From Enterovibrio sp. JCM 19048 (GTDB lineage Bacteria > Pseudomonadota > Gammaproteobacteria > Enterobacterales > Vibrionaceae), in contig BAXE01000001.1 in NCBI GenBank assembly GCA_001310415.1, positions 434,001 to 498,000 of the forward strand: a stretch of 64,000 bases of DNA. The letters are read 5' to 3'. The notes under the pieces were generated by a model that ran no database searches, was not told where the DNA came from, and saw nothing but the letters and a program-made list of their open reading frames with translations. Shown piece after piece: positions 7,899-64,000 of the stretch (position 1 is the first letter of the stretch; every line of letters starts with the position of its first letter). The position numbers were made by a program, and so were the translations under genes.

Positions 7899-8567
7899 CT
7901 ACAACTGATTGTATACAGAATAAGCGGTAACTATTCCGTACATTAGCAGTATCAATGATGAGAATCTTCGAAATATCATATTGTTAAGTAACTTTTTGGC
8001 TGTTTCTGCTGCCGAGCCAACAAATAGCATTGCTGGCAGGGTTCCTAGCCCAAATGCGAGCATTATCAATAATCCGTGCAATGCATTTCCAGCGACAGCG
8101 GCCCAACTCAGGCAGAATAAACTAACCCGCATGGTAGCCATCCCCAAAGAAAGCCAAAAGGTAAAGCGGCAATCGGGGTTTGTAATGGTAAAAATTTCTT
8201 GGTGAGGGGGGATACGTGCTTCCAAATGACATGACCTGCATTTTCAATGTAGGTCAGGCCGTTCCAGAATCGTCCAATGTATAGTGCCAGTAATATCATC
8301 ATGATAGCGGCAGCAAGGCGAAGCCAAAGCAACTCTTGGGAAATCTGGGTAACTTCTATAACGCCAGAGACAATACCACCGGCAATGGCGCCAAACAGAC
8401 CATAGGATAGCAATCTGCCGAAATTATAGAGAGCAATATAAGGAAACTTGTTTTTCTGTTGTGGTGTACCAAAGGAAACTGCAGCCGCGATGCCGCCACA
8501 CATTCCAAGCAATGGCCTGCTCCCAGTAGCCAACGCCAAACGCAGCGATGAGATCAGATAGAGGCAT
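7899..8567 (-). CDS. TauE/SafE-like membrane protein of the cbb3 assembly cluster (about three apparent frameshifts)
   Basis: Multi-pass membrane protein of the COG2836 type that usually accompanies ccoS in gammaproteobacteria; a role in copper handling or oxidase maturation is assumed for the family, not shown. Joining frames gives MPLSDLIAAFGVG, then LLGAGHCLGMCGG, then ...FLWGWLPCGLVYSA, then LSWAAVAGNALHG... to YSVYNQL. Each break restores by adding one base: a C near 8530, a G near 8508 and a C near 8105. The conserved GxCGG and LPCG motifs are both present. The start at 8567 lies 5 bases after the ccoS stop. Confidence 0.78.
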
Positions 8568-8572
8568 TACTG

Positions 8573-8761
8573 CTATTTCGCCTCATCTTCACTGTTTTCT
8601 GTCTCTGGTGATTTGGGCTTTTTTTCGTCGTCGAGAAGAATACTCATTCCTTGGCGTTCCAAATCTTCAAACTGTTCTGACTTTACGGCCCAAATGAAGA
8701 CGGCCACAGCCACACAGACAAGCACAATCGCGATAGGGATGAGAATGTAGAGGCTTTCCAT
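8573..8761 (-). CDS. ccoS: cbb3-type oxidase maturation protein CcoS
   Basis: Small single-pass membrane protein (62 residues) needed for cofactor insertion into cbb3 oxidase. It begins MESLYILIPIAIVLVCVAV, a hydrophobic helix, followed by WAVKSEQFEDLERQG, the usual CcoS segment, and a charged tail. It starts one base after the ccoI stop codon, so it is translated as part of the ccoHIS unit. The frame is intact. Confidence 0.93.
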   Translation of the reverse strand: MESLYILIPIAIVLVCVAVAVFIWAVKSEQFEDLERQGMSILLDDEKKPKSPETENSEDEAK

Positions 8762-8762
8762 C

Positions 8763-11154
8763 TTATGCGGCCTTAATTTTGTCCAGAATGTCGCTCTTAA
8801 ACAGTCTCAATGAGTTTGTAACAACGATAACCGAACTGCCGGACATTCCAGCAACAGCGATATATGGCGCAACATAACCCATGACAGCAAGAGGCAAAAT
8901 CACGAGGTTGTATCCTAGTGCCCATGCAAGGTTCTGGCGAATGATTTTTTGGGTAAACGCAGCGAGCCTGCGAGCATCCATCAATTTTGTCAGATCGTCG
9001 CCCAAAAGCACCATGTCTGCAGACGCTTTCGCGACGTCTGTGCCGCCGCCCATCGCAACAGAAAGGTGAGAACCGGCCAGTACCGGGCGTCGTTCACACC
9101 GTCACCAATCATCATCGTTATTTGGTCTTTTGGAAGGCTGTTCAGATAAGCAAGTTTACCTTCCGGTGTGACACCGGCGACTAACTCGTCAATCCCAAGC
9201 TTGTCAGCGACAGCGCGTGCAGTTGCCGAGTTGTCGCCGGTAAGCATGGTGACCTTGAGCCCGGACTCGTGGAACTTGTCGATCAGTGCTTGGCTTGTGC
9301 TTCTGATTGGGTCGACAAGCTGGAACGATGCGACGGGTTCTCCGGCACAGGAAAGCCAAACCTGATGTGCGCTGTTTTCAGCGCTACCTGGGTCATTCAA
9401 AGCAAACTGCGGTTTGCCAATCTTCCAAAGCTTATCTTGATAATAACCCTGCAAACCCTGGCCAATGACGTTTTCCACTTTCGTGAACGTTACGCCCGTG
9501 GGGTAGTCTTTGAAGGCTTGAGCTATAGGGTGGTTCGCATAAGCTTCGAGTGCTGCTGCAACTGCCAATGCTTCATCTTTGCGGGTGTCACCAAAGCAAT
9601 GGATGTCGGCAATGGTGACGTTGCCTTCGGTCAGCGTGCCGGTTTTATCCACGACAAGGTGATTCACCTTTGTCAGCGTTTCAAATACGTGCCCGCTTCG
9701 AAGCAAGATGCCCAATTTGCCAAAGGTGGATGTTGAGCAGGTGAGTGCGGTTGGCGTAGCAAGCGAGAGTGCACAAGGGCAGGTAGCAACCAGTACTGAC
9801 AGCATGATCCAGAATGCGTCATCCGGCTTGTGGCTATGCCAGTACAACCATGTCAATGCGGAAATCAGCAGAATAGCGGCAACAAAGTAGCGTGCGACGA
9901 TATCGGCAATTTCAGCGACGCGGGGCTTGGCCAATTGCGCGGCATCTTGTAGCTGGACTATGTGGGCAATCAGAGAGTCTTTTTTCTCAGCCGTTACTTT
10001 AACATTGACGTTTCCGTCGATATTCATGGTGCCCGCATAGACAGCATCACCACATTGGCGAGTTTCTGGCAGTGATTCACCCGTCAGCATGGACTCGTCG
10101 ACCGTGGTGACGCCCTCAACAACGAGGCCATCAGCAGGGAACGGTTCACCGGGCAAAACCCTTACTACATTATCGAGCTTCAGAGATTTCGCTGGAATTT
10201 GCTCCCCGGACGCCAAGGTCGCCAGTCGTGGGATAAGTTTTAAAAGGTTAGCACTGGCCGCTGCTGCAGTGCGTCGTGCTCGCATTTCGAGAAAGCGACC
10301 AACCAGCAGAAAGAAGGTGAACATGGCGATGGATTCAAAGAACACCTCGCCTTTTTCAGTCACTGTTGCATACAGGCTGGCAAAATAGGCAAATAGCAGG
10401 GCAATGGATACGGGAACATCCATACCCAGCGTTCGTGCTTTCAGGTTTCGCCAGGCGTTGAGATAAAAAGCGTTGCCGAATAGAGGAGAACCGGCGTGGC
10501 GAAGATCAAGCTAACCCAACGGAAATAGTTACGGAAGGCTTCGTCCATGTCACCGAATACTTCGAAATACATGGCGACAGCAAGCATCATAACCTGCATG
10601 GTAGCAAGCCCTGCAATCCCCAGTTTATAAAGGTAGTGCTTCATCGCCTGATGGTATTGGGCTTCCTGATTGTCCGCCTCAAAAGGCGCAGCTTTGTATC
10701 CTAACGTATGGATTTTGTTCAGAAGGGTACTGAGTTTGGTTTTTTCTGGATCCCAGCGCAGGGTCGCACGGTTAGTGGTGGTATTCACGCTGATGCGGGA
10801 TACACCTTCCTGTTTACCCAGTTGCTTTTCAATCAGCCATGCGCAGGCTGCGCAGGAGACGCCATCCACTGAGAGTACGACTTCATCGGTGCCGTTTTCA
10901 TGGCGCACAAATTCTTGTTGAACATCTTCGTTGTCATAAAGACTAAGCGATTGAAGTTCATCAGGGACGAGATTGGCTTTTTCAGCCGGTGCAGTGCGGT
11001 ATTCGTAGTAGGAAGTGAGGCCGTTGGCTACGATGGTTGAGGCGACCGCTTGGCATCCCGGGCAGCACATAGTGCGGGTGTCACCCAAGATATCAACTTG
11101 GTAGGAGTCACCGGTAAGAACCGGTTCTCCACAGTGATAACATTCTTTTGTCAT
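8763..11154 (-). CDS. ccoI: Copper-exporting P1B-type ATPase CcoI for cbb3 oxidase assembly (two apparent frameshifts)
   Basis: Copper-transporting P-type ATPase that supplies Cu to CcoN. In order: an N-terminal cysteine region (ECYHCGEPV, MCCPGCQAV), an HMA domain with GVSCAACAW, membrane helices, the CPCALSLATPTA motif, the phosphorylation site DKTGTLTEG, and the hinge MIGDGVNDA. Frames break near 10465 (one C missing in ATPFYLNAWRN) and near 9068 (one C missing after GVNDA, which should read PVLAGSHLSVAMGGG). Apart from these it is full length, about 797 residues. The start overlaps the ccoH stop. Confidence 0.93.
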
Positions 11155-48226: not shown

Positions 48227-50586
48227 ATGCAGGTTCAGCGGTTACGTATCCGTGGCGTAGTTCAGGGGGTGGGTTTCAGACCCGCCGTCTGGCATATCGC
48301 CCAGTCACTGTCACTGAAAGGCAGTGTGCTGAATGATGGTGAAGGCGTAGTGGTCGATCTCTGGTGCTCGCAGCAAGAAGCCAGTGACTTAATCGAACGG
48401 TTGATCGCCGAATGCCCGCCATTGGCGTCGATTGAATCGGTGGAAAGTGCGCAATGGAAGACCAGCGAATCCGTGCTGCCACCGGACGGTTTCACCATTG
48501 CTGAAAGCCATGAGTCCTCGCAGATCAACGCAGGGATTCCGGTGGATGCCTGCATTTGTAAAGCGTGCGCCGATGAAACGCTGGATCCGCAAAGCCGTCG
48601 TTACCGCTATCCGTTTACCAACTGCACCCATTGTGGGCCAAGGCTTTCCATCATCAAGGCATTGCCTTATGACAGGCCGAAAACCAGCATGGCGGCATTT
48701 CCTTTGTGTGCCGCATGCGAAAGTGAATACCGTAATCCGGCAGATCGCCGCTTTCACGCGCAACCCGTCGCTTGTCCTGAATGTGGCCCTTCGGTCTGGC
48801 TGACCGACGCATCCGGTAAACGGCTTGAGATTGACTCAGTTGATGCCATTGATGCCGCTTCTACGTTGATTGTTGAGGGAAAGATTTTGGCGGTAAAGGG
48901 GCTGGGCGGCTTTCATTTGGTGTGTGATGCCACCAATGAAGAGGCTGTAACCCAGCTTCGCCTGCGTAAAAGAAGACCCGCAAAACCTTTCGCTGTCATG
49001 ATGCCGGATTTGGAAATGGCGGAACTTTACTGTGCCTTGAATGATGCAGGCAGGGAAGTCATTCAAAGTGCAGCGTCGCCGGTTTTGATTGCCCCTCAAA
49101 ACAAGGTGACAACGTCACATAAAAGCATCGCAAACAGCATTGCCCCCGGGCTGGATGAACTCGGCATCATGCTACCAGCCACGCCGCTGCATTTGTTGCT
49201 GTGCCGTGATGCCGGCATTCCCTTAGTCATGACCTCCGCCAATCTCAGTGGCAACCCTCAATGCATCGACAACGATGAAGCCTTGGCTGATCTGGCCGAT
49301 ATTGCCGATTTTTTCCTGCTGCATGATCGCGATATTGTGGTGCGTGTTGACGATTCTGTAATGCGGCAAACCGCATCAGGGATGCAGACTATTCGCAGGG
49401 CGAGGGGCTTTGCCCCCAGTCCTCTGAGACTTCCTGCTGGCTTTGGGGAGTCAGAAAAAGTGCTGGCACTCGGCGGCGAAGTCAAAAACGCCTTTTGTTT
49501 GCTTTCCTCCCGTGGAGCGGTGCTGGGGCAATATGTCGGTGACCTTGAATCTGCCCGGGTTTGGGACGACTTCAACCGCCTCCTGTCTCATTATCAAAGG
49601 CTTTACCGCTTCGAACCGCAAAAGGTGGCTGTAGACGCGCACCCTGAATACATCGCGTCGAAATATGGTCGCGCCGCGTTTTTGCCTGAACAACGGGTTG
49701 AAGTCCAACATCACCATGCTCACGTTGCTGCCTGCATGGGCGACAACGGACAGGCGTTGGATTCCGTGCCCGTCATCGGCGTGGTATTTGATGGGCTTGG
49801 ATTCGGCGAAGACGGCACACTATGGGCGGTGAATTTTTGCTGGTCGACTACCGCCACTTTTCCCGTATCGCCCATTTGAAACCCGCCGCGTTACCCGGTG
49901 GTGCAACCGCCATTAAACAGCCCTGGCGTAACCTTGTCGCAAGGTTTGGCGAGTCAGGCTCAAGGGAAGCGTTTCTCACAGAAAGACTTCAGGCGCAGGG
50001 CATCGAATTGTCTGCCATCAACACAGTGAAACAGATGGTAGAAAAGGGGTTTAATGCGCCCATTTCGTCTTCCGCCGGTCGTCTGTTTGATTCGGTTTCG
50101 GCTGCGCTTGATGTCTGTACCAATACTCAAACTTACGAAGGCCAGGCGGCAATCGAACTGGAAGCACTGGCACATCAAAGTCAGGGCGCTTTTGCCTATC
50201 CGTTTGGGATTCTTGACGGCAATCTGCCCGTCCTTGACCCAACGCCAATGTGGCAAGCGCTATGCGAAGACTTGGAAAGCGGCCTTGAAGCACCAGTCAT
50301 ATCACGCCGTTTTCACCTGGGATTGGCGCAAGCGGTGGTGGACATGGTTCAACACTTGAGCCTGTCACTTGGCACCACCCATAAAATTGCATTGAGCGGC
50401 GGTGTTTTCCAGAACAAGCTGTTACTTGAACAAACTGTCGAGCGCCTGCAAAAGCGGGGTTTCGAGGTGCTTCTCCATCGTCAGGTACCTGCCAACGATG
50501 GCGGTCTCGCATTCGGGCAAGCCCTGATAGCTGCTGCACTTTCTTTGCATCAACACACCCAGTCGTTGGGCTTGAGCCATAATTAA
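48227..50586 (+). CDS. hypF: Carbamoyltransferase HypF (one apparent frameshift)
   Basis: Makes the carbamoyl group for HypE from carbamoyl phosphate, about 786 residues. N-terminal acylphosphatase domain (RIRGVVQGVGFRPAVW), two zinc-finger-like sets (CICKACADE, TNCTHCGPRLS, FPLCAACESEYR, VACPECGPS), a YrdC domain (about 205-390), and a C-terminal Kae1-like domain with VQHHHAHVAACM and ALSGGVFQNKLL. One G is missing near 49825 (TLWGGEFLLVDY). Confidence 0.94.
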
Positions 50587-50614
50587 TCAAGACTTTTTAA
50601 CCGGGAAGGCTGTG

Positions 50615-51566
50615 ATGGCGACAGAAAGGATGACCTTACTTTGGTTTCAAACCGGCAGCTGTGGTGGCGATACCATGTCGATCCTGAGTGCTGACCGTCC
50701 ATCATTTACCGACCTCTTCAATGACTATCCGCTGGAGTTGCTCTGGCAGCCTTCGTTATCCATTGAAAGCGTCACCAGTCTGAATGACATCATGGACAGG
50801 ATCCTTAATGGCTCCCAGCGCCTCGACATTTTGTGCATTGAGGGCAGCATTATCACCGGCCCCAATGGCACAGGTATGTACGATGCTTTTCGCAAAACAG
50901 CCAAGAAAGAGTGGGTAGAGCGACTGGCGCAGAAGGCGCGTTATGTAGTGGCAATGGGCACCTGCGCGGCATTTGGTGGCGTACATGCTGCGCCACCAAA
51001 CCCGACTGACTGTATCGGCCTGCAAATGGACAAAGATACGCCCGGTGGCTTGTTTGCGCCGGATTGGCGAAGCGGTGCAGGGTATCCGGTCATCAATATC
51101 GCGGGTGTCCTGTGCACCCCAATACCATGACCAAAACGCTGGCAATGATCGCCAGTGGCATCATTTTGCAGTTGGATGAGCTGAACCGGCCACGCGAATT
51201 CTTCAGCACCCTGGTGCATCAGGGTTGCACCCGCAATGAATATCACGAATACGACGTTGAAGAGTCCGAGTTTGGCACCAACGGTTGCATGTTCTTTAAC
51301 CTTGGCTGCAAAGGCCCTATACGCAGGCGACCTGCAATACCGATTTGTGGAACGGACGCAGCAGCAAGACCCGCGCCGGTGTGCCTTGTTTTGGCTGTAC
51401 TTCGCCGCAGTTTCCCGAAGATGAAGGGCTTTTCAGAACAGAAAAGCTGGGGCCGATCCCCTCGAAATTGCCCGTAGGTGTCGAACGTGCCAATTACATT
51501 GCCTACAAAAACCTCGCTAAAGCCGCTGCTCCGGATCGGGTCAAGAAACGCAAAATGGAGCCTTAA
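50615..51566 (+). CDS. hoxB: Cytoplasmic (sensor-like) NiFe hydrogenase small subunit, HoxB/HupU type (two apparent frameshifts)
   Basis: Small subunit of a second NiFe hydrogenase, about 318 residues, without a Tat signal or C-terminal membrane anchor, as in H2-sensing group 2 enzymes. Cluster motifs: LLWFQTGSCGGDTMSIL, MGTCAAFGG, AGCPVHPNTM, then a medial/distal set with HQGCTRNEYHEYD, NLGCKGP, TCNTDLWN and VPCFGCTSPQFP. In the first motif the usual second Cys is Asp (CGGD). Breaks lie near 51106 (one T) and 51314. Start 50615 behind GGGAAGG. Confidence 0.86.
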
Positions 51567-53084
51567 TGGTTAAGAAAACGCTGAATATTGACCTGAACCG
51601 AGTTGAAGGCGATTTGGAATTCGAGCTGGATATTGAAGACGGCATTGTGGTGGATGCCCGCTGTATCGGCGTGATGTACCGGGGTTTTGAGCAAATCATG
51701 ATTGGCCGGATGCCAAGGGATGCGGCAGTGATAACGCCCCGTGTTTGCGGCATTTGTGGCACGGCGCATCTTTATGCCGCCACACTGGCTTTGGAACAAA
51801 TCTGGGGGATCACGCCACCACCAAACGCGACTTACATCCGTAATCTCTGCTTGCTGACGGAAAGTATTCAGAACGATATTCGCCAGAGCTTCTTGATGTT
51901 TCTGGTCGACTTTTGCCACCAGGCGTATCGCGAACATCCTCTGTACAACCGCATCATGGCGGGATTCGAACCCTTCAAAGGGCGACACCATTTGGGGGCG
52001 CTGGAACAGTCCCGTGATGCTGTGGGGATCATCGCCTTATTCGGCGGGCAATGGCCGCATTCTTCCTACATGTTGCCCGGCGGTGTCGTCAGCAAACCCA
52101 CACACAGGAAGCTGATTGAAGCGACCAACATTATTACGGGGTTAACCCGCTGGTATGAAAACGCGGTGATTGGGGATTCGCTGGAAAACTGGCTCGATCT
52201 CAATAGCCGCGATGTCTTTTTTGACTGGCTGGAGAAAGACCAGAAGCGGGCAGACAGCGCGCTGGGCATTTTCACCCGTTTCTCCCGCGATATCGGACTC
52301 CACAACATTGGCTTTGGCAGTGAAAACTTGATCAGCTATGGCGTAATGCCAGACCCGCTACACGGCGGCCAATATGCCATGCCACCCGGCGTTTATGATG
52401 CTGACAACAAGACAATCAGCCACTGGATCAGTCCCTGATCACTGAACACGTCCGCTATTCCTGGTTCCGCCAATATCCTGGTGGAAGGCACCCATTCAAA
52501 GGTGAAACCATTCCTGATTATCAGACTGAGTCTGACCGTTATACCTGGGCCAAAGCGCAAGGTATGACGGAAAAGTGATGCAAACCGGGCCATTGGCAGA
52601 GCTGGTGATTGGTGCTGATCCGCTAATCACAGACTTTCACCAACGCGAAGGGGCATCAACCTGGTTAAGGCAGTTTTCACGGTTACGCCGGATCGGACAC
52701 AGCCTTGTTCAAATGAAGCAACTGGTCAAAACGCTGTCAGCAGATATCGACGGCGAGTTCTTCCTGCCACCCAAACCGGAGGATGAAGTCGATGGTAAAG
52801 GTTTCGGCATGATTCAGGCGGCGCGTGGCGGGCTGGGACATTGGGTGAGTGTGAAAGATGGGGTAGTTGAGAGCTACCAGATCATTACTCCCACAGCCTG
52901 GAATGCATCGCCGCGGGACGCAGACGGAAATCATGGTCACTGGGAGCAAAGTGTCATTGGCCTTAAAGTGGACGACTTGGAAAACCCGTTGACCATCAGC
53001 CATGTGATCCGCTCCCACGACCCTTGTCTGGTATGTACCGTTCATATGTTGCCGACCGGAAAATCAGTGCGGTTCGGGCTTTAG
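51566..53084 (+). CDS. hoxC: Cytoplasmic (sensor-like) NiFe hydrogenase large subunit, HoxC/HupV type (two apparent frameshifts)
   Basis: NiFe subunit partnered with the preceding gene, about 506 residues. Active-site Cys are in PRVCGICGTAHLYAAT and in SHDPCLVCTVH. After the last His there are 12 more residues (MLPTGKSVRFGL), a possible processed extension. Frame breaks near 52413 and 52563 restore NQPLDQSLITEHVRYSWF and KAQRYDGKVMQTGPLAELV. The start overlaps the hoxB stop (TAATG). Whether it is a sensor or a catalytic group 2 enzyme is not decided by sequence alone; the kinase neighbours favour sensing. Confidence 0.87.
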
Positions 53085-53096
53085 CGGGAAAGGGAT

Positions 53097-53597
53097 ATGG
53101 TGAAACTCAACATCCTCTGTTTCGGCAATATTCTTCATGGTGATGATGGTATCGGCGCTGAAATTGCCCGCCGTCTGCTGGATTGCGAATTGCCCGAAAA
53201 TGTCGAAGTGTTTGACGTGGGTACGCAAGGGCTTAACGCGTTGCCGCTTTTCAGCCAGTGTTCCCATTTGCTGATTGTTGATGCGGCAGAACTTGGGTTA
53301 TCACCCGGAGAATGGCAGTTTATCGAGCCAAGCCAGATGCTTTCAGAGAGCAATGCTGACCATGCTGGCGGGGTCGGATACTTACTGAAAGCCGCGCAGG
53401 CAGTCACGCACCCAATGCCGATTTTGACTGTTTTAGGCGTACAAAAGGGGAATATAGCGGCATTTTCGCCACATTTATCCAACTCTGTGATGGCCAAGCT
53501 GCACGAGTGCATTGAACAAATAGTGACGTTGTCACGCGATTTAACAGGCAACACGCACCACTCCACCGCGCAAATTTGGGGCAGGGGGAAAGCATGA
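53097..53597 (+). CDS. Hydrogenase maturation protease (HupD/HyaD-like)
   Basis: Second NiFe maturation peptidase of the window, 166 residues. LCFGNILHGDDGIGAEIARR carries GN and the Asp/Glu nickel ligands; VFDVGTQGLNALPLF and LLIVDAAELGLSPGEW follow, and the conserved His is in NADHAGGVGYLL. It lies 12 bases after the large-subunit gene and overlaps the kinase gene (ATGA), so it is probably dedicated to that enzyme. Canonical H2 sensors are not processed, which makes this gene noteworthy. Confidence 0.86.
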   Translation: MVKLNILCFGNILHGDDGIGAEIARRLLDCELPENVEVFDVGTQGLNALPLFSQCSHLLIVDAAELGLSPGEWQFIEPSQMLSESNADHAGGVGYLLKAAQAVTHPMPILTVLGVQKGNIAAFSPHLSNSVMAKLHECIEQIVTLSRDLTGNTHHSTAQIWGRGKA

Positions 53598-55804: not shown

Positions 55805-57047
55805 ATGCGAGAAACAAAGCCACTGGATAAGGTCGCGACCATCGCCGTAATAGACGATTCTGTTCCTTTGTGCGAAATGCTTTGTGATTTGCTCAATGAA
55901 GAAGGCTATCTGACGCAAGGTTACTTTTCAGGACAAACTGCCTTGGAGGGCATGGCCGACACGCCGCCGGATCTGATCTTGCTCGATATCGATATGCCGT
56001 ATATGGATGGTTTCGAGGTCTGTGAGCGCATTCAGTCTTCTTCACTTCTTAAACAGATCCCGGTGCTTTTCATCAGTAGTTACAGTGATTTAGATGACAA
56101 GCTTAAAGCGTTTAGCTGCGGTGCCCGGGATTATGTCACCAAGCCCATCCAACTGGCTGAAGTGAAAGCGAGGATTGAAACCCATTTATCACTTCGCGCG
56201 TACCAGCAAGCACTGGAAGCCAAGAACGAAACTTTGGCAAAAACGCTGGCAGAATTGAAAGCAACACAACAACAATTGGTGCAGACAGAAAAGTTGGCGG
56301 CGCTCGGTCAGGTCGTGGCGGGCGTGGCGCATGAAATCAATAATCCTGTGAGCTTTATCATCGGCAATGGTCATGTATTGAAGCGCAATGCGGAGCGCAT
56401 CGAAACCTACCTCACTGCTGTTCACCAACAATCTTTACCTTCTTCAATTTTGGCGCGTCGTGAATCGCTGCGAATCGACAATGTAGTCAGTGATATTTCT
56501 CCCTTGGTCAGTGATGTGCTTGAAGCAGCCAGCCGGGTAAGCGCCATTGTCGACGATCTTGGTTTATTCTGTTCCCAGCAACACGCTGATAAATCAACGC
56601 TTAAGCTCAGTGAACTTGTCGCTGATGCCATCAAATGGGTGACTGCCAACCGCGGTTTTGAATACGCAATCTCACCCGAACTTGATGATTCAATTGAGGT
56701 TATTGGGAATAAACGGCAACTGGTTCAGGTCATTATTAACCTGCTGAACAACGGGCTTGATGCCTGTAAGGCCAAAAGTTTTCGCCGCAAATTGTGCTAA
56801 CAAGCGGTATCGACAGCACCCAAAATCAGGCCCGGCTGAGTATCAGCGACAACGGCCCGGGGATTTCAGACGGCCATGTTCAGAAGATCTTCGACCCTTT
56901 CTTTACTACCAAAAAGTGGGCGAGGGCATGGGACTCGGTCTGGCAATTTGCCACCGTTTAATCGCCGAACATGGCGGTGATCTTACCGTGCAGAACCTGC
57001 CTGAAGGCGGCGCCAAGTTTACGGTTTCACTACCAATCGCCGTTTAA
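55805..57047 (+). CDS. Receiver-histidine kinase fusion, second component of the H2 phosphorelay candidate (two apparent frameshifts)
   Basis: About 414 residues. N-terminal receiver ([16 protein letters not shown]; phosphoacceptor in [15 protein letters not shown]), a coiled-coil linker, a HisKA-like domain with [15 protein letters not shown], and HATPase_c with [26 protein letters not shown]. Breaks near 56785 and 56920 (one A) restore [10 protein letters not shown] and the F box. It starts 27 bases after the hybrid kinase, so it could receive phosphate from the HPt domain. The gene ends four bases inside convergent cbbR2. Confidence 0.84.
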
Positions 57048-58125: not shown

Positions 58126-58240
58126 CCACAAGCCTCAAACCAAGCTTGAGCGCCAGCCAAGCGTTAATCAGATAATTCACCAAAGGTTGAAGAACCCAAT
58201 TGGAACAGAATGATCCAATACAGGGTTCTTAGAGAATTGG

Positions 58241-58272
58241 TAATTATCTATTTTATGGTAAATAGATAATTA
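58241..58272. repeat. Perfect 13-bp inverted repeat near dif
   Basis: TAATTATCTATTT (58241-58253) and AAATAGATAATTA (58260-58272) are perfect inverted copies around a six-base spacer TATGGT. No T-run follows, so it is not a standard terminator. It lies 80 bases from dif in the 680-base stretch between cbbR2 and the first phage gene. It may be an operator or a recombination-protein site. Confidence 0.75.
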
Positions 58273-58352
58273 CGTTTAATAGACTGAAATCGTTGAAGAA
58301 AGAGGGTCATTGCAGATATGATGGAACCACATTTCGCGTAGCTGCATATCTT

Positions 58353-58380
58353 ATTTAACATAATATACATAATACGCACT
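58353..58380 (-). other. dif: Chromosome dimer resolution site dif (XerCD)
   Basis: On the minus strand the XerC arm AGTGCGTATTA, spacer TGTATA and XerD arm TTATGTTAAAT form a 28-bp site. The XerD arm equals the E. coli/Vibrio consensus, and the XerC arm differs from V. cholerae dif1 (AGTGCGCATTA) at one base. Synteny of the left part of the window with the V. cholerae dif1 neighbourhood agrees. Phage-like genes begin at once to the right, so it is probably also the attachment site of an integrated element. Confidence 0.92.
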
Positions 58381-58390
58381 AGGAGGTTAA

Positions 58391-58645
58391 GTGTTAACAA
58401 AGCTGACAGCACACCGAATTTTGCGAAATGCTTGCCTCCAAGTATATGAATTCTATGTGCAAATTTTGGTAACGTCTAATTTCCTCTTATTGAGGCTTTG
58501 CCTCGATTACTGCACACTTGCGCCGATATTTTTTCGAGCATCCGGCCTTTGGGTCGTTTTGATAGAAAGTATCAATGGTGCGCGCCATTACCTATCGAAA
58601 ATAACAATCAATAAGGAAGTAAAAATGCGAGGTAACGCATGTTAA
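58391..58645 (+). CDS. Small hypothetical protein at the start of the integrated element
   Basis: GTG start at 58391 behind AGGAGG gives an 84-residue protein with a hydrophobic middle (LVTSNFLLLRLCLDYC) and a basic C-terminus ending KEVKMRGNAC. It begins 11 bases after dif and overlaps the next gene. The ribosome site is strong, but codon use and family give no support. Could be a short leader. Confidence 0.35.
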   Translation: MLTKLTAHRILRNACLQVYEFYVQILVTSNFLLLRLCLDYCTLAPIFFRASGLWVVLIESINGARHYLSKITINKEVKMRGNAC

Positions 58646-59069
58646 TTGATGCCTTTCGAACGCTCTTTTGGCGCGAATTCCCAACCATTCAGGACGGCGC
58701 AGCTATTTTCATGTTAAGCCCATCACAGTCAGACGTTGGCTCGACGGCTCCGTCCCGGTCAATCCCATGGCAGAAAAGCTGCTTATCATCAAATCGCGTG
58801 GCTACCTGCCAAACGATACCAACTGGCACGGTTTTAGGGTCAACGAGGAACGCGCGGTGATCATCACACCGGACGGCCGCGAGTTTGCGCCCCGCGAACT
58901 GGAAGGCTTTCCGCTGTGGCGTGACCAGTACCATGCATTAAAAGACCGTTACGGCCTGATTGAGCGCCCGCCTGTGCGACCGCCCTTGGAGCCGGTACAG
59001 GTTTACCGTGGCGGGAAACGTCGCCAACCAGCGCCCTGGGTGCCGACACGGGACAAAATAATGAAGTGA
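58639..59069 (+). CDS. Phage HTH protein, DUF3653-like (one apparent frameshift)
   Basis: About 144 residues. MLIDAFRTLFWREFPTIQ continues, after a frame change near 58708, as HVKPITVRRWLDGSVPVNP, a helix-turn-helix-like pattern followed by AEKLLIIKSRGYLPND and a Pro/Arg-rich C-terminus (RPPVRPPLEPVQVYRGG). It resembles the phage family DUF3653 as I remember it. It is transcribed away from dif, opposite to the structural-like genes, so it may be the element's regulator. Confidence 0.6.
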
Positions 59070-59070
59070 C

Positions 59071-59100
59071 AAAAAAGCCCGCTATTTGCGGGCTTTGTAA
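59071..59100 (-). terminator. Terminator between the HTH gene and a minus-strand gene
   Basis: AAAGCCCGC (59074-59082) pairs with GCGGGCTTT (59088-59096). On the minus strand it is followed by TTTTTT, so it mainly ends the gene at 59135-59899. Confidence 0.8.
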
Positions 59101-59134
59101 ATTAGTCGGTTGGTTTAGCCGTAATGCTTTTTTT

Positions 59135-59899
59135 CTAAGTGCCTTGGTGATTTAAAAAATAAGTATGTTTATACTCTCGCCCCTGCAATCTGTGGCATTC
59201 TTTAGTCCACTTATCAAGGCTAACGCAAACTCCATATCCAAGAGTACTCGATGCACTACCCATCAAATTTATAGCGCTGTTTTTCCATTGATACGTTGCT
59301 TTATTATGACTTGCTCCCTCGTAAAGACCTACGAGTGCTGAATTGAAGCCCATCCATTTCGCAAGGGGCTTCAAAGAAATATTAACGAGTAATTGTTTGA
59401 AAAATAGGTAATTTTCGTCAGATTCAGATTCACTGCTGTTCACTATTTTTAAAAGCAAATTTTCATAAGTCATCTCACCAATTTCTTTAGACGAAATTGT
59501 CACCTTCGCGCTGTCGAATGCTTCATCATCATTTTTACCTAACGAGATTAAAGTCAATTTTATTGCTTCGTCTGTTACAACCTCAGATAGCGTTCTTTGC
59601 ATATCGACTGATAGTGTATTTACGTTTTCTTTCCCTTGCTCAGTTAGGTTGGCAATGGTGGACATGCAAATAGCAAAATTTCGCTCTCGGTTGGATTGAA
59701 ATAATTGAATAATAAGGACAATTAAAGTTAGCAAAGACAAAATAGGGGTGTATAACCCGCTAAGTGCACTCCCCATTTGTGCCCATTCTTCATGAGTTTG
59801 CCATAATCCCCAGCCGAATACCTGTTGATAGAAAAAGATGGGGCTAATCATTGTCACAATCAACACGATGGCGCAGATAATGAACCAGTTTTTATTCAC
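59135..59899 (-). CDS. Two-helix membrane protein resembling putative abortive-infection proteins
   Basis: 254 residues. Helix 1 is WFIICAIVLIVTMISPIFFY, then WGLWQTHEEWAQMGSALSGL, helix 2 PILSLLTLIVLIIQLF, then a cytoplasmic helical domain. The layout and the G-L-Y-x-P-I-L-x-L-L-T-L motif recall the N-terminus of putative phage abortive-infection (putAbiC-like) proteins. The gene is flanked by terminators on both sides and is clearly more AT-rich than its neighbours, as expected for a moron carried by a prophage. A defence role is a hypothesis only. Confidence 0.55.
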   Translation of the reverse strand: MNKNWFIICAIVLIVTMISPIFFYQQVFGWGLWQTHEEWAQMGSALSGLYTPILSLLTLIVLIIQLFQSNRERNFAICMSTIANLTEQGKENVNTLSVDMQRTLSEVVTDEAIKLTLISLGKNDDEAFDSAKVTISSKEIGEMTYENLLLKIVNSSESESDENYLFFKQLLVNISLKPLAKWMGFNSALVGLYEGASHNKATYQWKNSAINLMGSASSTLGYGVCVSLDKWTKECHRLQGREYKHTYFLNHQGT

Positions 59900-60010
59900 A
59901 GACTTCCTCTTTTTTTCACGTTGTTATGACTGAAATAACGGCACCAACCATCTTAACTTTTTGTTGAGTGTGAAGTAAATCTTGTACAACTAAGCATTGG
60001 TCACTACATA

Positions 60011-60038
60011 GAAAAGCCCGCAGTTGCGGGCTTTTTTG
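60011..60038. terminator. Terminator at the end of the phage late-like operon
   Basis: AAAAGCCCGC (60012-60021) and GCGGGCTTTT (60025-60034) form a strong stem with T-rich flanks in both directions. It ends the minus-strand gene set at 60055-64000. Confidence 0.85.
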
Positions 60039-60054
60039 TTTAACCAGGATCTAA

Positions 60055-60219
60055 CTAAATCAGCTTGCGTTGTTTTCGAGCTTTGACACCTTTCTTACCT
60101 GCAGCACTCAATTTCTTACGCATGGTCGCGGCGAACTTGCGATCATTTTTCCACTTGCGGGCGGTAGCTTGGCCGCCCATTTTACCGGCTTGTTTCACCG
60201 TGGGTGATTTCGTTGGCAT
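60055..60219 (-). CDS. Small highly basic phage protein
   Basis: 54 residues, about one third Lys/Arg: MPTKSPTVKQAGKMGG, RKWKNDRKFAATMRKKLSAA, GKKGVKARKQRK. Start 60219 behind AAGGTG. Such proteins condense or bind DNA in small virions; this is inference. It is the last gene of the minus-strand cluster. Confidence 0.6.
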   Translation of the reverse strand: MPTKSPTVKQAGKMGGQATARKWKNDRKFAATMRKKLSAAGKKGVKARKQRKLI

Positions 60220-60373
60220 CAGTTCACCTTGCTTTCTAACTGGCGAATTCGGGTTTCGTGGTCGCTGAGTTTGTCTTTCATCCAGCGAACATCGACTTAA
60301 GCGCGACAACGGTCAGCACCGACGACAACAAGGCCGTGGCAGCCGAGGTGCCGAGAATCGGGAGTAAATCCAT
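60219..60373 (-). CDS. Small membrane/coiled-coil phage protein (one apparent frameshift)
   Basis: MDLLPILGTSAATALLSSVL continues as a helix (TVVALKSMF), and after adding one base near 60288 as WMKDKLSDHETRIRQLESKVN, a short heptad segment. About 51 residues. The stop overlaps the next ATG (TGATG). Uncorrected it would be two very short genes. One helix plus coiled coil suits a virion membrane or lysis protein. Confidence 0.45.
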
Positions 60374-60374
60374 A

Positions 60375-60569
60375 TCAGCGCCCTTTCTGCTCATTGCGGA
60401 ACGTTTCCCACAGGCCAAGCCCCAACATGCCGAGCGTGGCCAGTGAGCCGCCGAACTGTGGGTCGCCGGTGTTCGGGATTTCAACGGTCAGTAGCTCATT
60501 GACGCCCCCTGCAGTCAGGGCGGAGCCAGCCAGCAGTGCCAAGCCCTTGAAGGTGCTTGGCTGTTTCAT
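60375..60569 (-). CDS. Small membrane protein, holin-like candidate
   Basis: 64 residues: MKQPSTFKGLALLAGSALTA, then GGVNELL and a second hydrophobic stretch GGSLATLGMLGLGLWETF, ending with charged EQKGR. Two helices and a charged tail next to a lysozyme-like gene fit a holin. No family is recognised. Confidence 0.5.
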   Translation of the reverse strand: MKQPSTFKGLALLAGSALTAGGVNELLTVEIPNTGDPQFGGSLATLGMLGLGLWETFRNEQKGR

Positions 60570-60588
60570 CAGGTTTTTACATACTTTT

Positions 60589-60690
60589 TCATAGCAGATT
60601 CCCTTGCTTCAAAAACTTCACGGCATACGCGCCGAGCACCACGCCTGCCACGGACAGGCTCAACTTGATCGCAATGTCTTTCTTGGTCAT
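60589..60690 (-). CDS. 33-residue membrane protein overlapping the lysozyme-like gene
   Basis: MTKKDIAIKLSLSVAGVVLG then AYAVKFLKQGNLL: one helix with basic ends. The ATG overlaps the upstream stop as ATGA with GGAG at good distance, which supports translation. Similar tiny membrane proteins are typical of membrane-containing phages. Confidence 0.5.
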   Translation of the reverse strand: MTKKDIAIKLSLSVAGVVLGAYAVKFLKQGNLL

Positions 60691-61166
60691 GCCATTTCGA
60701 CTCCCGTCATCACGGTAGAAAGCGGATACACGCGCCCTACTTCCATGCGCGCCATGGCCTGCAACAACTTGGCCAGCACATGCGGGTTGTCCACGTCCAC
60801 CGGTGTGTTCACGTCAAAGCCCGTCCACTTGGCGACCATGTTGGTGTAATGGCTCGGGTCGTTGTTATCTTCCTTCGGCGCAAAGGTGCGGATAATCGCC
60901 GGAATGGTGTTAATCCCGCGCCGGTTGTAGCTCTTGAGGATTTTTGCCCCTGCTCGGAAGCCATATTCCGGCGAGATAAACGCCTCATAGTTGCGGTTAT
61001 GGTCTGGCGCGGTTTCCCCTTGCCAGTCGTTCCCTTTGCGGATATTCAGCGGGTTGTTATTGCGCACACCCATTGGCGCAGCGAGTCCGGTCATTTCAGC
61101 CACCTTGTCCCGTTTCCAGAAAATCAGGGCGGCGAGAACCGCCCCTGTGATAAGTGCCGCTTTCAT
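60687..61166 (-). CDS. Membrane-anchored lysozyme-like virion protein
   Basis: 159 residues. An N-terminal helix (ALITGAVLAALIFW) is followed by GVRNNNPLNIRKGNDWQGE, then FISPEYGFRAGAKILKSYNRRGI, and IIRTFAPKEDNNDPSHYTN, motifs of the phage/prophage muramidase-like structural protein family. It would open peptidoglycan during entry or release. It follows the large structural-like gene by three bases. Confidence 0.75.
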   Translation of the reverse strand: MKAALITGAVLAALIFWKRDKVAEMTGLAAPMGVRNNNPLNIRKGNDWQGETAPDHNRNYEAFISPEYGFRAGAKILKSYNRRGINTIPAIIRTFAPKEDNNDPSHYTNMVAKWTGFDVNTPVDVDNPHVLAKLLQAMARMEVGRVYPLSTVMTGVEMA

Positions 61167-61169
61167 GGC

Positions 61170-62404
61170 TTAACGGCTGATAGCGTTGCTGAGCAGCAGC
61201 GGTTCTTCGGAATACAGCGCTTTGACCGACACAAAATCAAACGCGCTCATGTTGGCCAAATCCAGCGCCGCTTCTTCTGTGTATTCGTCTGTATCGTCGA
61301 TAAACACGCTGATACGCGCATTTTTCATATCAATCACGAGGTTTTCGCCGTCCATACGGACGACATTCACCTTGATGATTTCAGCGCGGTATTTGAGTGT
61401 TTCTGGGAACGCTGGGTCGGCAAAGTACGCATGCAGTGAATCAAGGATAAAGTGCTGTTTGGCGTGCCAGTCCGTCGGCAGGACGCGCCCCATGTTCAGC
61501 GACAGTTCTTTGTGTGTGGCGTCCCACTTGCCATGGCCGATACCTTCGGCGCTGGCGGGGTTCATCACCCCAGACACGGTGCGAAGTGTTGAACCTGGGC
61601 GCTCGCTGTAAAGGGTCAATCCCTCAATGTTACCGGCGCGGAAGTCGGCCAGCTCTTGGTCAGTCAGCTGGGTTTTATCAATCACCGCGACTTCGAGAAT
61701 TTCCCATTTCTGGTTGCCGGAATGGTTCCATTGCTCACCGAGGTGAAATTGCAGGTACGCCGGTTTGGACGTGTCCAAGGTGGCGAAATCATCCCTGTAC
61801 AAGACATGCACGTCGCCGCCGCTATTGGTGTACGCAACAGGGGCTTGGCTGACAATCAGAACGGTGTCACTGTTCCCGCCTTCATCACCGGAGGTGCCAA
61901 AGTTGTTTGAGCCGGTGTCTGTCAGGTTGCCAAATTCCGAGGTGATCATGCCGTTGGTCATGTTGCAGCGGAACAAGATGCGAAACGCCAAATCCTGCCC
62001 GTGCACGTTGGACGGTAAGGAAAAATCCGCTTGAGCGTCAACGTGTTCTTTTCCCCCGTGATTTCGAGCCGTTTCTCGCCATAGTTCGTGCTGATGTATC
62101 GCATGTTGCACTCGCGTTCGCGGTTCATCATGCGATACAGCCAGCCATTGCCTAACAGGCGGGTTGTGCCGTCTTCAAGGTGCCAGAATGCGCCCCCGAT
62201 TTGTCCCTGCCACCCTGAATAATCAATGTGCGTCGGGTCAACAAAGTGGCTGAATACTTTTTGCAGCAGGCCGTTGGGTAACAGGTTGGGAATGACTTTC
62301 TGCGCCTTGGGCGCGTTGTTCACCTTGTTGAACAGTTCACCAACAAGACCAAAAAGAAATTCGATTTTATTGCGGGCGCTGCCCTGTGGCAGTGTCAGGC
62401 TCAT
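61170..62404 (-). CDS. Phage structural protein, major capsid candidate (one apparent frameshift)
   Basis: About 411 residues when the frame is repaired near 62029 (one G missing, giving NTLTLKADFSLP). The N-terminus is MSLTLPQGSARNKIEFLFGL; the rest is beta-rich, with HGQDLAFRILFRCNMTNGMI and KYRAEIIKVNVVRMDGENLV. It is the largest gene of the cluster. Length and composition would suit a double-jelly-roll capsid protein, but I cannot recognise the family, and a baseplate or tail protein is not excluded. Confidence 0.5.
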
Positions 62405-63141
62405 CGTAAATACTCCGTGTAAATAACGGTGTCAGCGGCTGCGCCAGTCAGGTGCAGTTCGCCGTAAACGTCCAGTGAAAGTGAGAAGCCCGCGCCAAGC
62501 GTCAGGCCGTTGGTAGATTGGGCGGCATCGTCCGCACTCGGATAAATCACGACGTCAGCCGTGTTCGCGGCCGGTGCGGCCAGTTCGATGCGGCTGCGCG
62601 CTGGGTTGGCGGCAACCACCTTGGCCACGTCGGCCAGCGTGGCGGTTTGCTGGGTGAACGTGCGGTTGGCACGTTGGTAAACCCAAAGTGCCTGGTTGCC
62701 ACTGTGCACCTCGACCGTCTGTCCCGTTTTCAGCGCAACAGGTGGCAAGGCGTCCAGCGTGACGGGTTGTGCACCGTCAAAAGCGACCGGTTGCGCGCCG
62801 TCAAAACGCACACGCGGCAGCGCATCCAACGTCACCGGCTGCGCCCCGTCAAAGGCCACGGCAGGCAGGCTGGAAACGTCCACTTTCTGCCCGTCAGCCG
62901 GTGGCACGTAGCGGCCATAACCGGAAATCACCCGCACCAAGCCTGCTTGGTCGCCGGTCAGTTCGAGATAGACGTCGCCGCCGTCAGCGCTGGCGTCAAT
63001 CACCTGCGCCCCCTGCGCCAGTTCATAACTGCCACGCTTGGTGGTCACGCGCACTGTTGCCGGTGCGGTGTCGATGTAGATAAATTCCCCGACAAGGAAA
63101 AACTGGGCGCGCTCATACGGGTTAAGGGTTTGCTGGAACAC
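62401..63141 (-). CDS. Phage structural protein with FDGAQPV repeats
   Basis: 246 residues, GTG start behind AAGGGG. The N-terminus MFQQTLNPYERAQFFLVGEF is followed by a beta-rich domain, then short repeats AFDGAQPVTLDALP, RFDGAQPV and AFDGAQPVTLDALP (about residues 93-135), and a C-terminal beta domain (LGAGFSLSLDVYGELHL). The repeats suggest an elongated spike or fibre. It overlaps the capsid-candidate gene start by four bases. Confidence 0.5.
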   Translation of the reverse strand: MFQQTLNPYERAQFFLVGEFIYIDTAPATVRVTTKRGSYELAQGAQVIDASADGGDVYLELTGDQAGLVRVISGYGRYVPPADGQKVDVSSLPAVAFDGAQPVTLDALPRVRFDGAQPVAFDGAQPVTLDALPPVALKTGQTVEVHSGNQALWVYQRANRTFTQQTATLADVAKVVAANPARSRIELAAPAANTADVVIYPSADDAAQSTNGLTLGAGFSLSLDVYGELHLTGAAADTVIYTEYLR

Positions 63142-63144
63142 GGT

Positions 63145-63270
63145 TTATTTCCCCTTGAGTAAGTACATCAACACGGCCACCGACACAAAGCCGATGCCCG
63201 CAATCCAAAGGACGCGCTTGTCGGCCAGCGATGCCCCGCCGTCGGCTTTCATCTTGGCGAGTTCCATCAT
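63145..63270 (-). CDS. 41-residue single-helix phage protein
   Basis: MMELAKMKADGGASLADKRV then LWIAGIGFVSVAVLMYLLKGK: a short soluble part and one C-terminal helix with basic end. It begins inside the stop region of the preceding gene (TGATG-type overlap) and provides the ribosome site for the next gene. Likely a virion membrane protein. Confidence 0.5.
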   Translation of the reverse strand: MMELAKMKADGGASLADKRVLWIAGIGFVSVAVLMYLLKGK

Positions 63271-63677
63271 GGCTTGATGTTCTGGCTGTTCTGTTCACCC
63301 TGACTGCCGGACAAGCCCGCCAACATCTGCAAGTTTTCACTGTGCTTGTCGCCAAGCTGGTCGATGCTGCTCCCAGCGATGGACACGACCACACCCAGCG
63401 AGTCTTTGCCAAAGCCAAACGCCTTATCGACGGCACCGTCCACGCTGTCCAGCGCACGGCCGGTGACCTCGGCATTGGATGTCATGGCGAACTCGGCCGC
63501 CGACTCGGCAAAATCGAGCGACTTATCGACCGCGCCGTGGTCAGTGGCGGTAATGGTCATCGTTGAATTGTTGACGCCAGCGACCGACACACCGAGGTTG
63601 TCCCCGTGAATGGCATTTGTGCCGCCGACGTTGGTTGTCGTGGTGGTATTTTTACTTTCGCTTTTCTTACCGCCCAT
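63267..63677 (-). CDS. Hypothetical phage protein, Ser/Thr/Asn-rich N-terminus
   Basis: 136 residues: MGGKKSESKNTTTTTNVGG, then VSVAGVNNSTMTITATDHGA, an amphipathic middle (VDKSLDFAESAAEFAMT, VDGAVDKAFGFGKDSLGVV), and a Gln/Ser-rich end. No recognised family. It overlaps both neighbours by a few bases, as the whole cluster does. Confidence 0.5.
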   Translation of the reverse strand: MGGKKSESKNTTTTTNVGGTNAIHGDNLGVSVAGVNNSTMTITATDHGAVDKSLDFAESAAEFAMTSNAEVTGRALDSVDGAVDKAFGFGKDSLGVVVSIAGSSIDQLGDKHSENLQMLAGLSGSQGEQNSQNIKP

Positions 63678-64000
63678 TATTCCCCCGCAGGTCTAAAACT
63701 AATTGGCGAATACCGCCCTCATCCTCGACCACGCGAAAGCCTGCCCGCACATAAATCCGGTCAAGACCGGTGCGGGTCACTTGGCCACAGATACGCGCAT
63801 ACCCCTGACTTTTTACGGCGTCGATAAACACCGGCAGCCCTGCCCGCAGGTTGCGGCCAGCCAGCGCCATGACGAAATAATCGCTGTCGTTATCAACCAG
63901 CCCGACAAAGCGCAGGGACACGCCCTCGCCGGTCAGGTGGTAGAAACTGGCGCGCTTGTCCCGCACCAGTTTTTCGCAATAGGCGAACTGCTCGCTGGCG
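63667..64000 (-). CDS. GNAT-like protein (partial, 5' end outside window)
   Basis: The frame is open to the right edge. The visible C-terminal 110 residues contain FYHLTGEGVSLRFVGLVDN, then YFVMALAGRNLRAG and DRIYVRAGFRVVEDEGG, the last resembling the end of a GNAT acetyltransferase fold (Y-x-R-x-GF-x-V). A GTG at 63966 could start a shorter protein, but the open frame upstream (AYCEKLVRDKRAS) reads as coding. Confidence 0.4.
   Translation of the reverse strand, partial: ASEQFAYCEKLVRDKRASFYHLTGEGVSLRFVGLVDNDSDYFVMALAGRNLRAGLPVFIDAVKSQGYARICGQVTRTGLDRIYVRAGFRVVEDEGGIRQLVLDLRGNNGR

Follow-up and report, generated by a model that had tools for sequence, protein, structure and literature searches.

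We analysed a stretch of 64,000 nucleotides from the draft genome of Enterovibrio sp. JCM 19048 (assembly GCA_001310415.1; 5.27 Mb, 70 contigs, 87.5% complete), located at positions 434,001 to 498,000 of contig BAXE01000001.1 (C1) and referred to below as the window, with its first base as position 1. Close to its right-hand end, the window contains an exact dif1-type site for the host recombinases XerC and XerD, and on the XerC side of this site lies a minus-strand block of phage genes that continues on C1 past the window. A preliminary description, drawn up from the letters of the window alone, had already noticed this block, had proposed a non-filamentous phage integrating by Xer recombination and had suggested looking for another dif-like site pointing the same way, for absence of an integrase and for strains lacking the element. 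The proposal is now well supported, as we found a second dif-like site, no integrase and relatives with an empty dif1. We consider it about 90% probable that the locus carries a ~13.2-kb tailless prophage of the PM2-like type (Vinavirales), integrated at dif1 on the XerC side by what sequence comparison points to as XerCD recombination. Papers are cited by PMC number.

The near junction and the host side of dif1

The preliminary description had called the site nearly identical to Vibrio dif1. This was borne out, since the site (Table 1) is one base away from the V. cholerae dif1 given in Table I of PMC3089051; its 28-mer was absent from 100 shuffled sequences, even with three mismatches allowed. 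The near junction would combine a phage-derived XerC arm (AGTGCGTATTA), the centre TGTATA and the XerD arm of the host. DNA from the XerD side was matched in 15 of 18 genomes of the genus, mostly twice in each and over up to 213 bp (in a few over 35-60 bp only), hence the XerD side is chromosome and the phage lies on the XerC side. A 213-bp block common to the window and contig C3 was for the same reason rejected as an element end: it is the host flank of dif. Two dif sites were found in the genome, dif1 in the window and dif2 on C3 with the centre CTATCT; in the genus, two dif-type sites occur in 13 genomes (on one and the same contig in G013), one in two genomes and none in three at the mismatch limit used.

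The far junction and empty sites in relatives

The far junction was found in the same genome at C41:4603-4630 on the minus strand and reads AGTGCGCATTA.TGTATA.GGGAGTTAAAT. It has the same orientation as the near junction and keeps the XerC arm and the 6-bp centre, and its XerD arm is degenerate. A genome scan for XerC arm plus centre (17-mer, up to two mismatches) returned four places, namely the window site, C41:4614-4630, dif2 and one on C16; the latter (C16:22326) was rejected as a further Xer site for want of a XerD-like arm. On C41, the element carries a Rep-like gene (540 aa; PHROG 38601, 2e-74), preceded by a 146-aa frame with no match, as well as a methyltransferase-like and a CI-like repressor gene; the junction and then host genes follow. 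Among these host genes, an acetyltransferase-like gene (C41:8187-8648, named by eye) has counterparts of 58-70% identity in seven relatives, where they lie to the XerC side of dif1, and a LysR-like gene of the window lies on the XerD side of dif1 in two relatives.

Relatives also show dif1 free of the element. In G011, LysR, dif1 and the acetyltransferase gene lie within ~3.3 kb and no capsid match was obtained. We took this genome as the empty site because two other candidates, G016 and G010, were rejected for a DUF3653-like gene and a weak phage-like match, respectively, beside dif; G013 serves as a further example, limited to the XerC side. That a prophage lies beside dif1 by chance and has its true ends elsewhere is hardly conceivable: the incomplete contig is all that speaks for it, while the far junction shares orientation, arm and centre with the near one, sits on the contig that carries the host neighbour of dif1, and belongs to a two-ended layout seen in 19 other elements.

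With 8,561 bp on C1, 4,630 bp on C41 and an unsequenced gap between them, the element measures ~13.2 kb; a complete counterpart of the same layout in G015 has 11,962 bp between its junctions. The gap probably falls inside one gene of ~160 codons, judging from the C1 piece, which aligns with its homologue from residue ~44 on (own residue 16), and the C41 piece, which appears as a 22-residue start. The gene has no family match, and the C41 piece gave no significant match.

Genes of the element and virus group

The first 5.6 kb of the element lie inside the window and a further 2.9 kb on C1 (Table 1). A small helix-turn-helix gene and a cluster of structural genes had been claimed to start within 11 bases of dif. 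Neither could be retained, as the open reading frame (ORF) nearest to dif (58391-58645) matches no Pfam family at a threshold of E 0.01, the first recognisable gene (DUF3653; 62% identical to its counterpart adjoining dif in G015) sits 288 bp away, and the structural block comes no nearer than ~1.7 kb. The lysozyme-like gene of the preliminary description stood up to the profile search. Its ~410-residue capsid candidate was rejected, since it dissolves into two overlapping frames with no family match for either: the 313-aa piece has neither a PHROG nor a Pfam match and the 148-aa piece, searched against PHROGs only, no match there. From its place in the gene order, this position is a candidate for a spike or receptor-binding gene.

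The true capsid gene lies beyond the window. On C1, small genes are followed by a gene of the P2 major capsid family and then by a packaging ATPase gene in two frames (L005:8342-8990), with pieces at 8342-8845 and 8595-8990 that match PHROG 2666 (1.5e-15 and 7e-9) and the ATPase of relatives; its frame is broken, and C1 terminates within the small gene adjoining it. When combined into a profile with four relatives, the capsid protein matches the solved P2 structure of PM2 (2vvf, E 2.5e-8), and several genes of the structural block match PHROGs common to tailless phages, as does the L085 counterpart of the 64-aa ORF a gene of a V. cyclitrophicus tailless phage. Among 20 element protein entries, several of them matchless, none had a PHROG match described as filamentous morphogenesis. 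Judged by its genes, the element is a Vinavirales (PM2-like) prophage and would form tailless, icosahedral particles containing a membrane.

Table 1 Features of the element and its host flank (window positions unless a contig is given).
Feature	Position	Strand	Evidence
Host chromosomal flank, XerD side of dif	58171..58352		95% identity to flank of C3 site
Inverted XerD-arm-like motif TTATGGTAAAT, conserved, in host flank	58236..58263	+	Sequence scan
dif1-type XerCD site; boundary between host (XerD side) and element (XerC side)	58353..58380	minus	Exact AGTGCGTATTA TGTATA TTATGTTAAAT
DUF3653 phage gene, first recognisable element gene	58668..59069	+	Pfam PF12375 2.6e-14; PHROG 8213 1.1e-47
Accessory gene, 254 aa	59135..59899	minus	Weak PHROG matches only, best 2.5e-4
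Small ORF, 84 aa	60055..60309	minus	ORF list; no PHROG match
Small ORF, 64 aa	60375..60569	minus	43% (2e-4) to L085 gene
Transglycosylase/lysozyme-like gene	60687..61166	minus	PHROG 873 (described as endolysin) 1.3e-40; 51% to L083 counterpart
Variable virion-gene position, two overlapping frames	61170..62404	minus	Pieces 61170-62111 (313 aa) and 61958-62404 (148 aa)
Structural-block phage gene, 246 aa	62401..63141	minus	PHROG 12829 7.4e-16; 36% to L083 counterpart
Structural-block phage gene, 136 aa	63267..63677	minus	PHROG 12546 8.5e-30
Phage gene, 139 aa, continues beyond window end	63667..64000	minus	PHROG 10333 4.9e-26
P2-type major capsid gene, 280 aa, past window end	C1:498734-499576 (L005:7235-8077)		Pfam P2_N 4.4e-43, P2_C 9.6e-39

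Integrase search and host recombinases

Neither Pfam nor an integrase profile of 72 sequences, run against the six-frame pieces of both element loci, revealed an integrase in the sequenced part of the ~13.2-kb element, outside of which lies a short contig gap. The genome has four PF00589 matches, and among the matches listed (C22, C18, C2) none lies on C1 or C41. The host XerC gene is intact on C22; the host XerD gene on C18 (G000:C18:78876-79744) is split into two frames, and the fourth PF00589 match probably corresponds to the second of them.

Split genes raise the question whether the element is a dead remnant that once entered by Xer recombination and now merely marks dif, since the reading frames of its ATPase gene, its variable virion gene and perhaps Rep are interrupted. 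We think this possible but doubtful. The main core genes for Rep, ATPase, capsid, transglycosylase and repressor are all present, and the host XerD gene as well as, it seems, a histidine-kinase-like gene (recognised by eye at window 56757-57047) are likewise split between frames, which suggests frequent small assembly errors. With several genes split in an assembly that is 87.5% complete, this copy may nevertheless be defective.

Attachment layouts and proposed mechanism

Xer-type elements with capsid genes of this family fall into three layouts, which we named after the attP descriptions in PMC4246890 (section 9) and PMC3089051. The TLC-like layout consists of a XerC arm, the same 6-bp centre as dif and a degenerate XerD arm, often with GGTAA; in the mirror layout the element lies on the XerD side and has a degenerate XerC arm, the same centre and a perfect XerD arm; the VGJ-like layout has a good XerC arm, a different centre of 7-8 bp and a TTATGT-type arm. 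Both ends were seen in 19 TLC-like, five mirror and nine VGJ-like elements, and the window element is the twentieth TLC-like one. For the mirror type we found no description in the literature searched, which is not proof of absence. The CTXphi type, with a 12-bp-centre attP1 and an inverted attP2, was not encountered at the window element, as L005 and L108, searched for a XerC arm separated from TTATG by 4-14 nt, yielded the 6-bp dif only.

Two observations concern neighbouring sites. Near some dif sites (L113, L178, L219), a XerC arm precedes a centre of 11-12 nt and TTATG, resembling the CTXphi attP1 of Table II in PMC3089051; these perhaps belong to neighbouring filamentous prophages. At L109, L112, L115 and L143, a centre of 7-8 nt occurs where the near junction of the tailless element was expected, suggesting tandem arrays with VGJ-type prophages. 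The near end of the G188 element was not found in the extension L222, and L109 has a VGJ-type site at the place expected for it.

The element very probably uses host XerC and XerD. According to our model, the circular phage genome would have carried an attP composed of the XerC arm, TGTATA and GGGAGTTAAAT, and host XerC/XerD would have recombined it with dif1, whereby the XerC arms were exchanged across the identical 6-bp centre. By analogy with TLCphi, which has the same attP layout, the reaction would start with XerD and proceed independently of FtsK. A strand exchange started by XerC and completed by replication, as in VGJphi, appears rather unlikely: good XerC arms at both ends and VGJ-like sites among capsid relatives would suit it, but the centre has 6 bp and is identical to that of dif, whereas the 29-bp attP of VGJphi has a divergent centre of 7 bp (PMC3089051, Table III). 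After the TLC-like exchange, the XerD flank of the host would retain an intact dif, which should keep dimer resolution working; since both junctions share arm and centre, integration should be reversible.

Reciprocal occurrence of integrases and Xer-type sites in related elements

The capsid profile matched in 96 of 329 genomes of the Vibrionaceae. We took 126 capsid loci, of which L096 and L220 were dropped (no capsid match by profile); the remaining 124 gave 125 rows, with capsid pieces below 120 aa in L094 and L218 skipped. A row was assessable if at least 6 kb were available on both sides of the capsid gene, which holds for 105 of the 125. The 20 short rows comprise eight with neither feature (short contigs), among them L165, the circle described below, and L144, whose TLC-like site was missed by the survey rule, six with an integrase only, five with a Xer-type site only, and L128. 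In the latter, a one-ended Xer match was rejected as it lies inside the capsid gene, and the row was manually assigned the state 'none' in the tree.

The result was strikingly reciprocal. Among the 105 assessable rows, 59 have an integrase without a Xer-type site, 44 a Xer-type site without an integrase, two have both and none has neither (Fisher p 1e-27, a value that ignores kinship). In the two rows with both (L197, L200), the integrase lies outside the dif-bounded interval and its PF00589 match is below the cut-off. No integrase was found inside the element in any of the 46 assessable Xer-type rows.

To account for kinship, the states were placed on a capsid tree of 111 rows, built by a 'quick' method (long branches were flagged by the program) and excluding capsids below 220 aa, rows with neither feature and a second L085 capsid, which belongs to the same element as L196. 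On this tree, the integrase/Xer state changes 19 times, at least 14 of them on starred branches. In a pair test with both traits coded directly (102 assessable rows, three further ones being outside the tree; starred branches), 15 independent pairs differ in integrase; the Xer site differs in the opposite direction in 13, ties in two and goes the same way in none (sign test p 0.00024). Five close pairs align at the DNA level with up to 89% identity, over stretches that include neither the integrase nor a junction. These data suggest that relatives of the element repeatedly swapped between host enzymes and an integrase of their own. We found no description of this reciprocal pattern in the literature searched, which does not prove that there is none, and regard it as a more interesting result than the window element itself.

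Among records of V. cyclitrophicus tailless phages, 41 gave a capsid match, and nine of these were scanned in the same respect. Two of the nine have an integrase and no Xer-type site and end in a direct repeat unlike dif; of the seven without an integrase, three have Xer-type sites and four do not, ending at or in genes. An IS629-type transposase is annotated at the record end, near Xer-type sites, in L261 and L264 (PQ189321, PQ189338) and in the filamentous L224 (PQ189324).

Alternatively, the element might encode its own integrase, located in the unsequenced stretch separating C1 from C41 or on a contig absent from the assembly, and merely target dif. This would be compatible with the two contigs not being joined and with integrases having been reported as regular in dif-site tailless prophages (PMC11630473). 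It is very unlikely given that the contig ends look like parts of a single ~160-codon gene, that no assessable Xer-type element contains an integrase, and that seven of the nine V. cyclitrophicus records lack one, three of them with Xer-type sites.

A circular form in Vibrio gazogenes

One mirror-type prophage was found in two states. Genome G208 carries prophage L164, whose junctions are 11,916 bp apart, and in addition a separate contig, L165, of 11,916 bp. The junction of this contig reads AGACGTGACTG.TATATA.TTATGTTAAAT, which is the product predicted from recombining both prophage ends; integrated and circular copy differ by two mismatches and two gaps in one aligned piece of 6.5 kb. Over 11,034 compared bases, the element is identical to NZ_CP018837.1 (L276), the circular, 11,916-bp 'plasmid unnamed1' of Vibrio gazogenes ATCC 43942, hence we take G208 to be this strain. 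None of the 22 genes listed for NZ_CP018837.1, in a gene table that is incomplete, is named integrase, and the integrase profile found nothing in L165. From these comparisons, the V. gazogenes 'plasmid' is recognisable as the circular form of a mirror-type tailless prophage. V. gazogenes ATCC 43942 might thus serve as a test system in which a chromosomal and a circular copy of one element occur without an integrase.

A conserved motif in the host flank and other genes of the window

The motif TTATGGTAAAT, one base off an inverted XerD arm, occurs exactly in the host flank of 48 of 60 distinct dif flanks (window 58236-58270 and 47 others), 79-165 nt from dif on the XerD side and at exactly 90 nt in 17 cases. 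Among these 60 flanks, it never appears in forward orientation, and the 250 nt next to dif on the XerC side are always free of it; as background, 1.25 Mb of integrase-bearing loci contain four copies. It is present at dif1, at dif2 and in prophage-free genomes, often in a hairpin (by eye), and is possibly an accessory Xer site. Among the matches listed in a literature search for the motif, no paper dealt with dif. Elsewhere in the window, hydrogenase-like genes (by eye, from translations only) lie at 49822-53597, upstream of regulator genes.

Discussion

Several points weigh against an integration by host recombinases. The element spans two contigs whose join is unsequenced, and its ATPase gene, perhaps Rep, its variable virion gene and the host XerD gene are split in an assembly of limited completeness. 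A 158-aa element protein without a Pfam match at 0.01 is weakly similar to a PHROG that bears the name integrase, its residues 20-67 aligning with 363-410 of 651 (E 0.005). The far XerC arm carries the base usual in the genus (C) and the near one a T, as arm exchange predicts, but dif2 of the same genome also has the AGTGCGTATTA arm with T, so that the difference is only suggestive. In 14 of the 46 assessable Xer-type rows only one end was seen, and G036 has a near junction and no far one even after extension of the locus. The dif pattern was unmatched in three of the 18 genus genomes. In favour of Xer integration, far-site and local dif centre agree in 19 elements with eight different centres (shuffled mean 4.5), but this agreement was part of the rule defining the TLC-like class; a centre-blind scan of far-side XerC-arm matches nevertheless gave two clear classes, 19 of 69 with an identical centre and the other 50 with 3-6 mismatches. 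Finally, dif-site tailless prophages 'regularly carried integrase genes' according to PMC11630473, with an inconclusive mechanism.

That paper left open whether host recombinases or own integrases act at dif, and our survey answers this cleanly, albeit at the level of sequence. We regard it as fairly probable that tailless double-jelly-roll phages reached the Xer solutions of filamentous phages (TLCphi-like, VGJphi-like) in addition to the mirror layout, and that integrase and Xer module were switched at least a dozen times and never combined in one element. If this is true, hijacking of XerCD is a swappable module and not a trait peculiar to filamentous phages. Xer-using microvirus prophages exist as well. 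The layout found here leaves the host with an intact-looking dif, which could explain why prophages are tolerated at a site that chromosome segregation requires.

Comparison with known systems

The preliminary description implied that a non-filamentous Xer phage would be novel. This part is not supported, as published accounts already locate NO16 (PMC9966536), Jorvik (PMC10589892) and the tailless prophages of V. cyclitrophicus (PMC11630473) at dif or at sites resembling it. What the window contains is a further case of a recently described kind, and Xer use by tailless phages is already in print. Like it, NO16 and its relatives (proposed Asemoviridae) are tailless, PM2-like temperate Vibrio phages at dif-like sites for which XerCD was proposed; the likeness is one of description only, with attP layouts unsorted and integrase content unreported in the available text of PMC9966536. 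The V. cyclitrophicus tailless prophages (PQ189334, PQ189348 and others) have capsids up to ~60% identical to that of the window element and a similar gene order; a few lie at dif and most have an integrase of their own, with dusA as one hotspot (PMC11630473). Jorvik (Vinavirales, Rhodobacter) likewise has no predicted integrase and attP/attB resembling dif motifs, but unlike the window element it has an alphaproteobacterial host and inserts into the RuBisCO operon there (PMC10589892). TLCphi of V. cholerae shares the dif1-like XerC arm and centre, the degenerate XerD arm and the lack of an integrase (PMC4246890), but is a satellite of filamentous phages without structural genes, and no gene kinship was seen. 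PM2 itself (Corticoviridae) has a major capsid of the same P2 family and is, in contrast to the window element, described as lytic; its presumptive dif as quoted in PMC9966536 has a perfect XerD arm and a poor XerC arm, which by our own reading of the sequence corresponds to the mirror layout.

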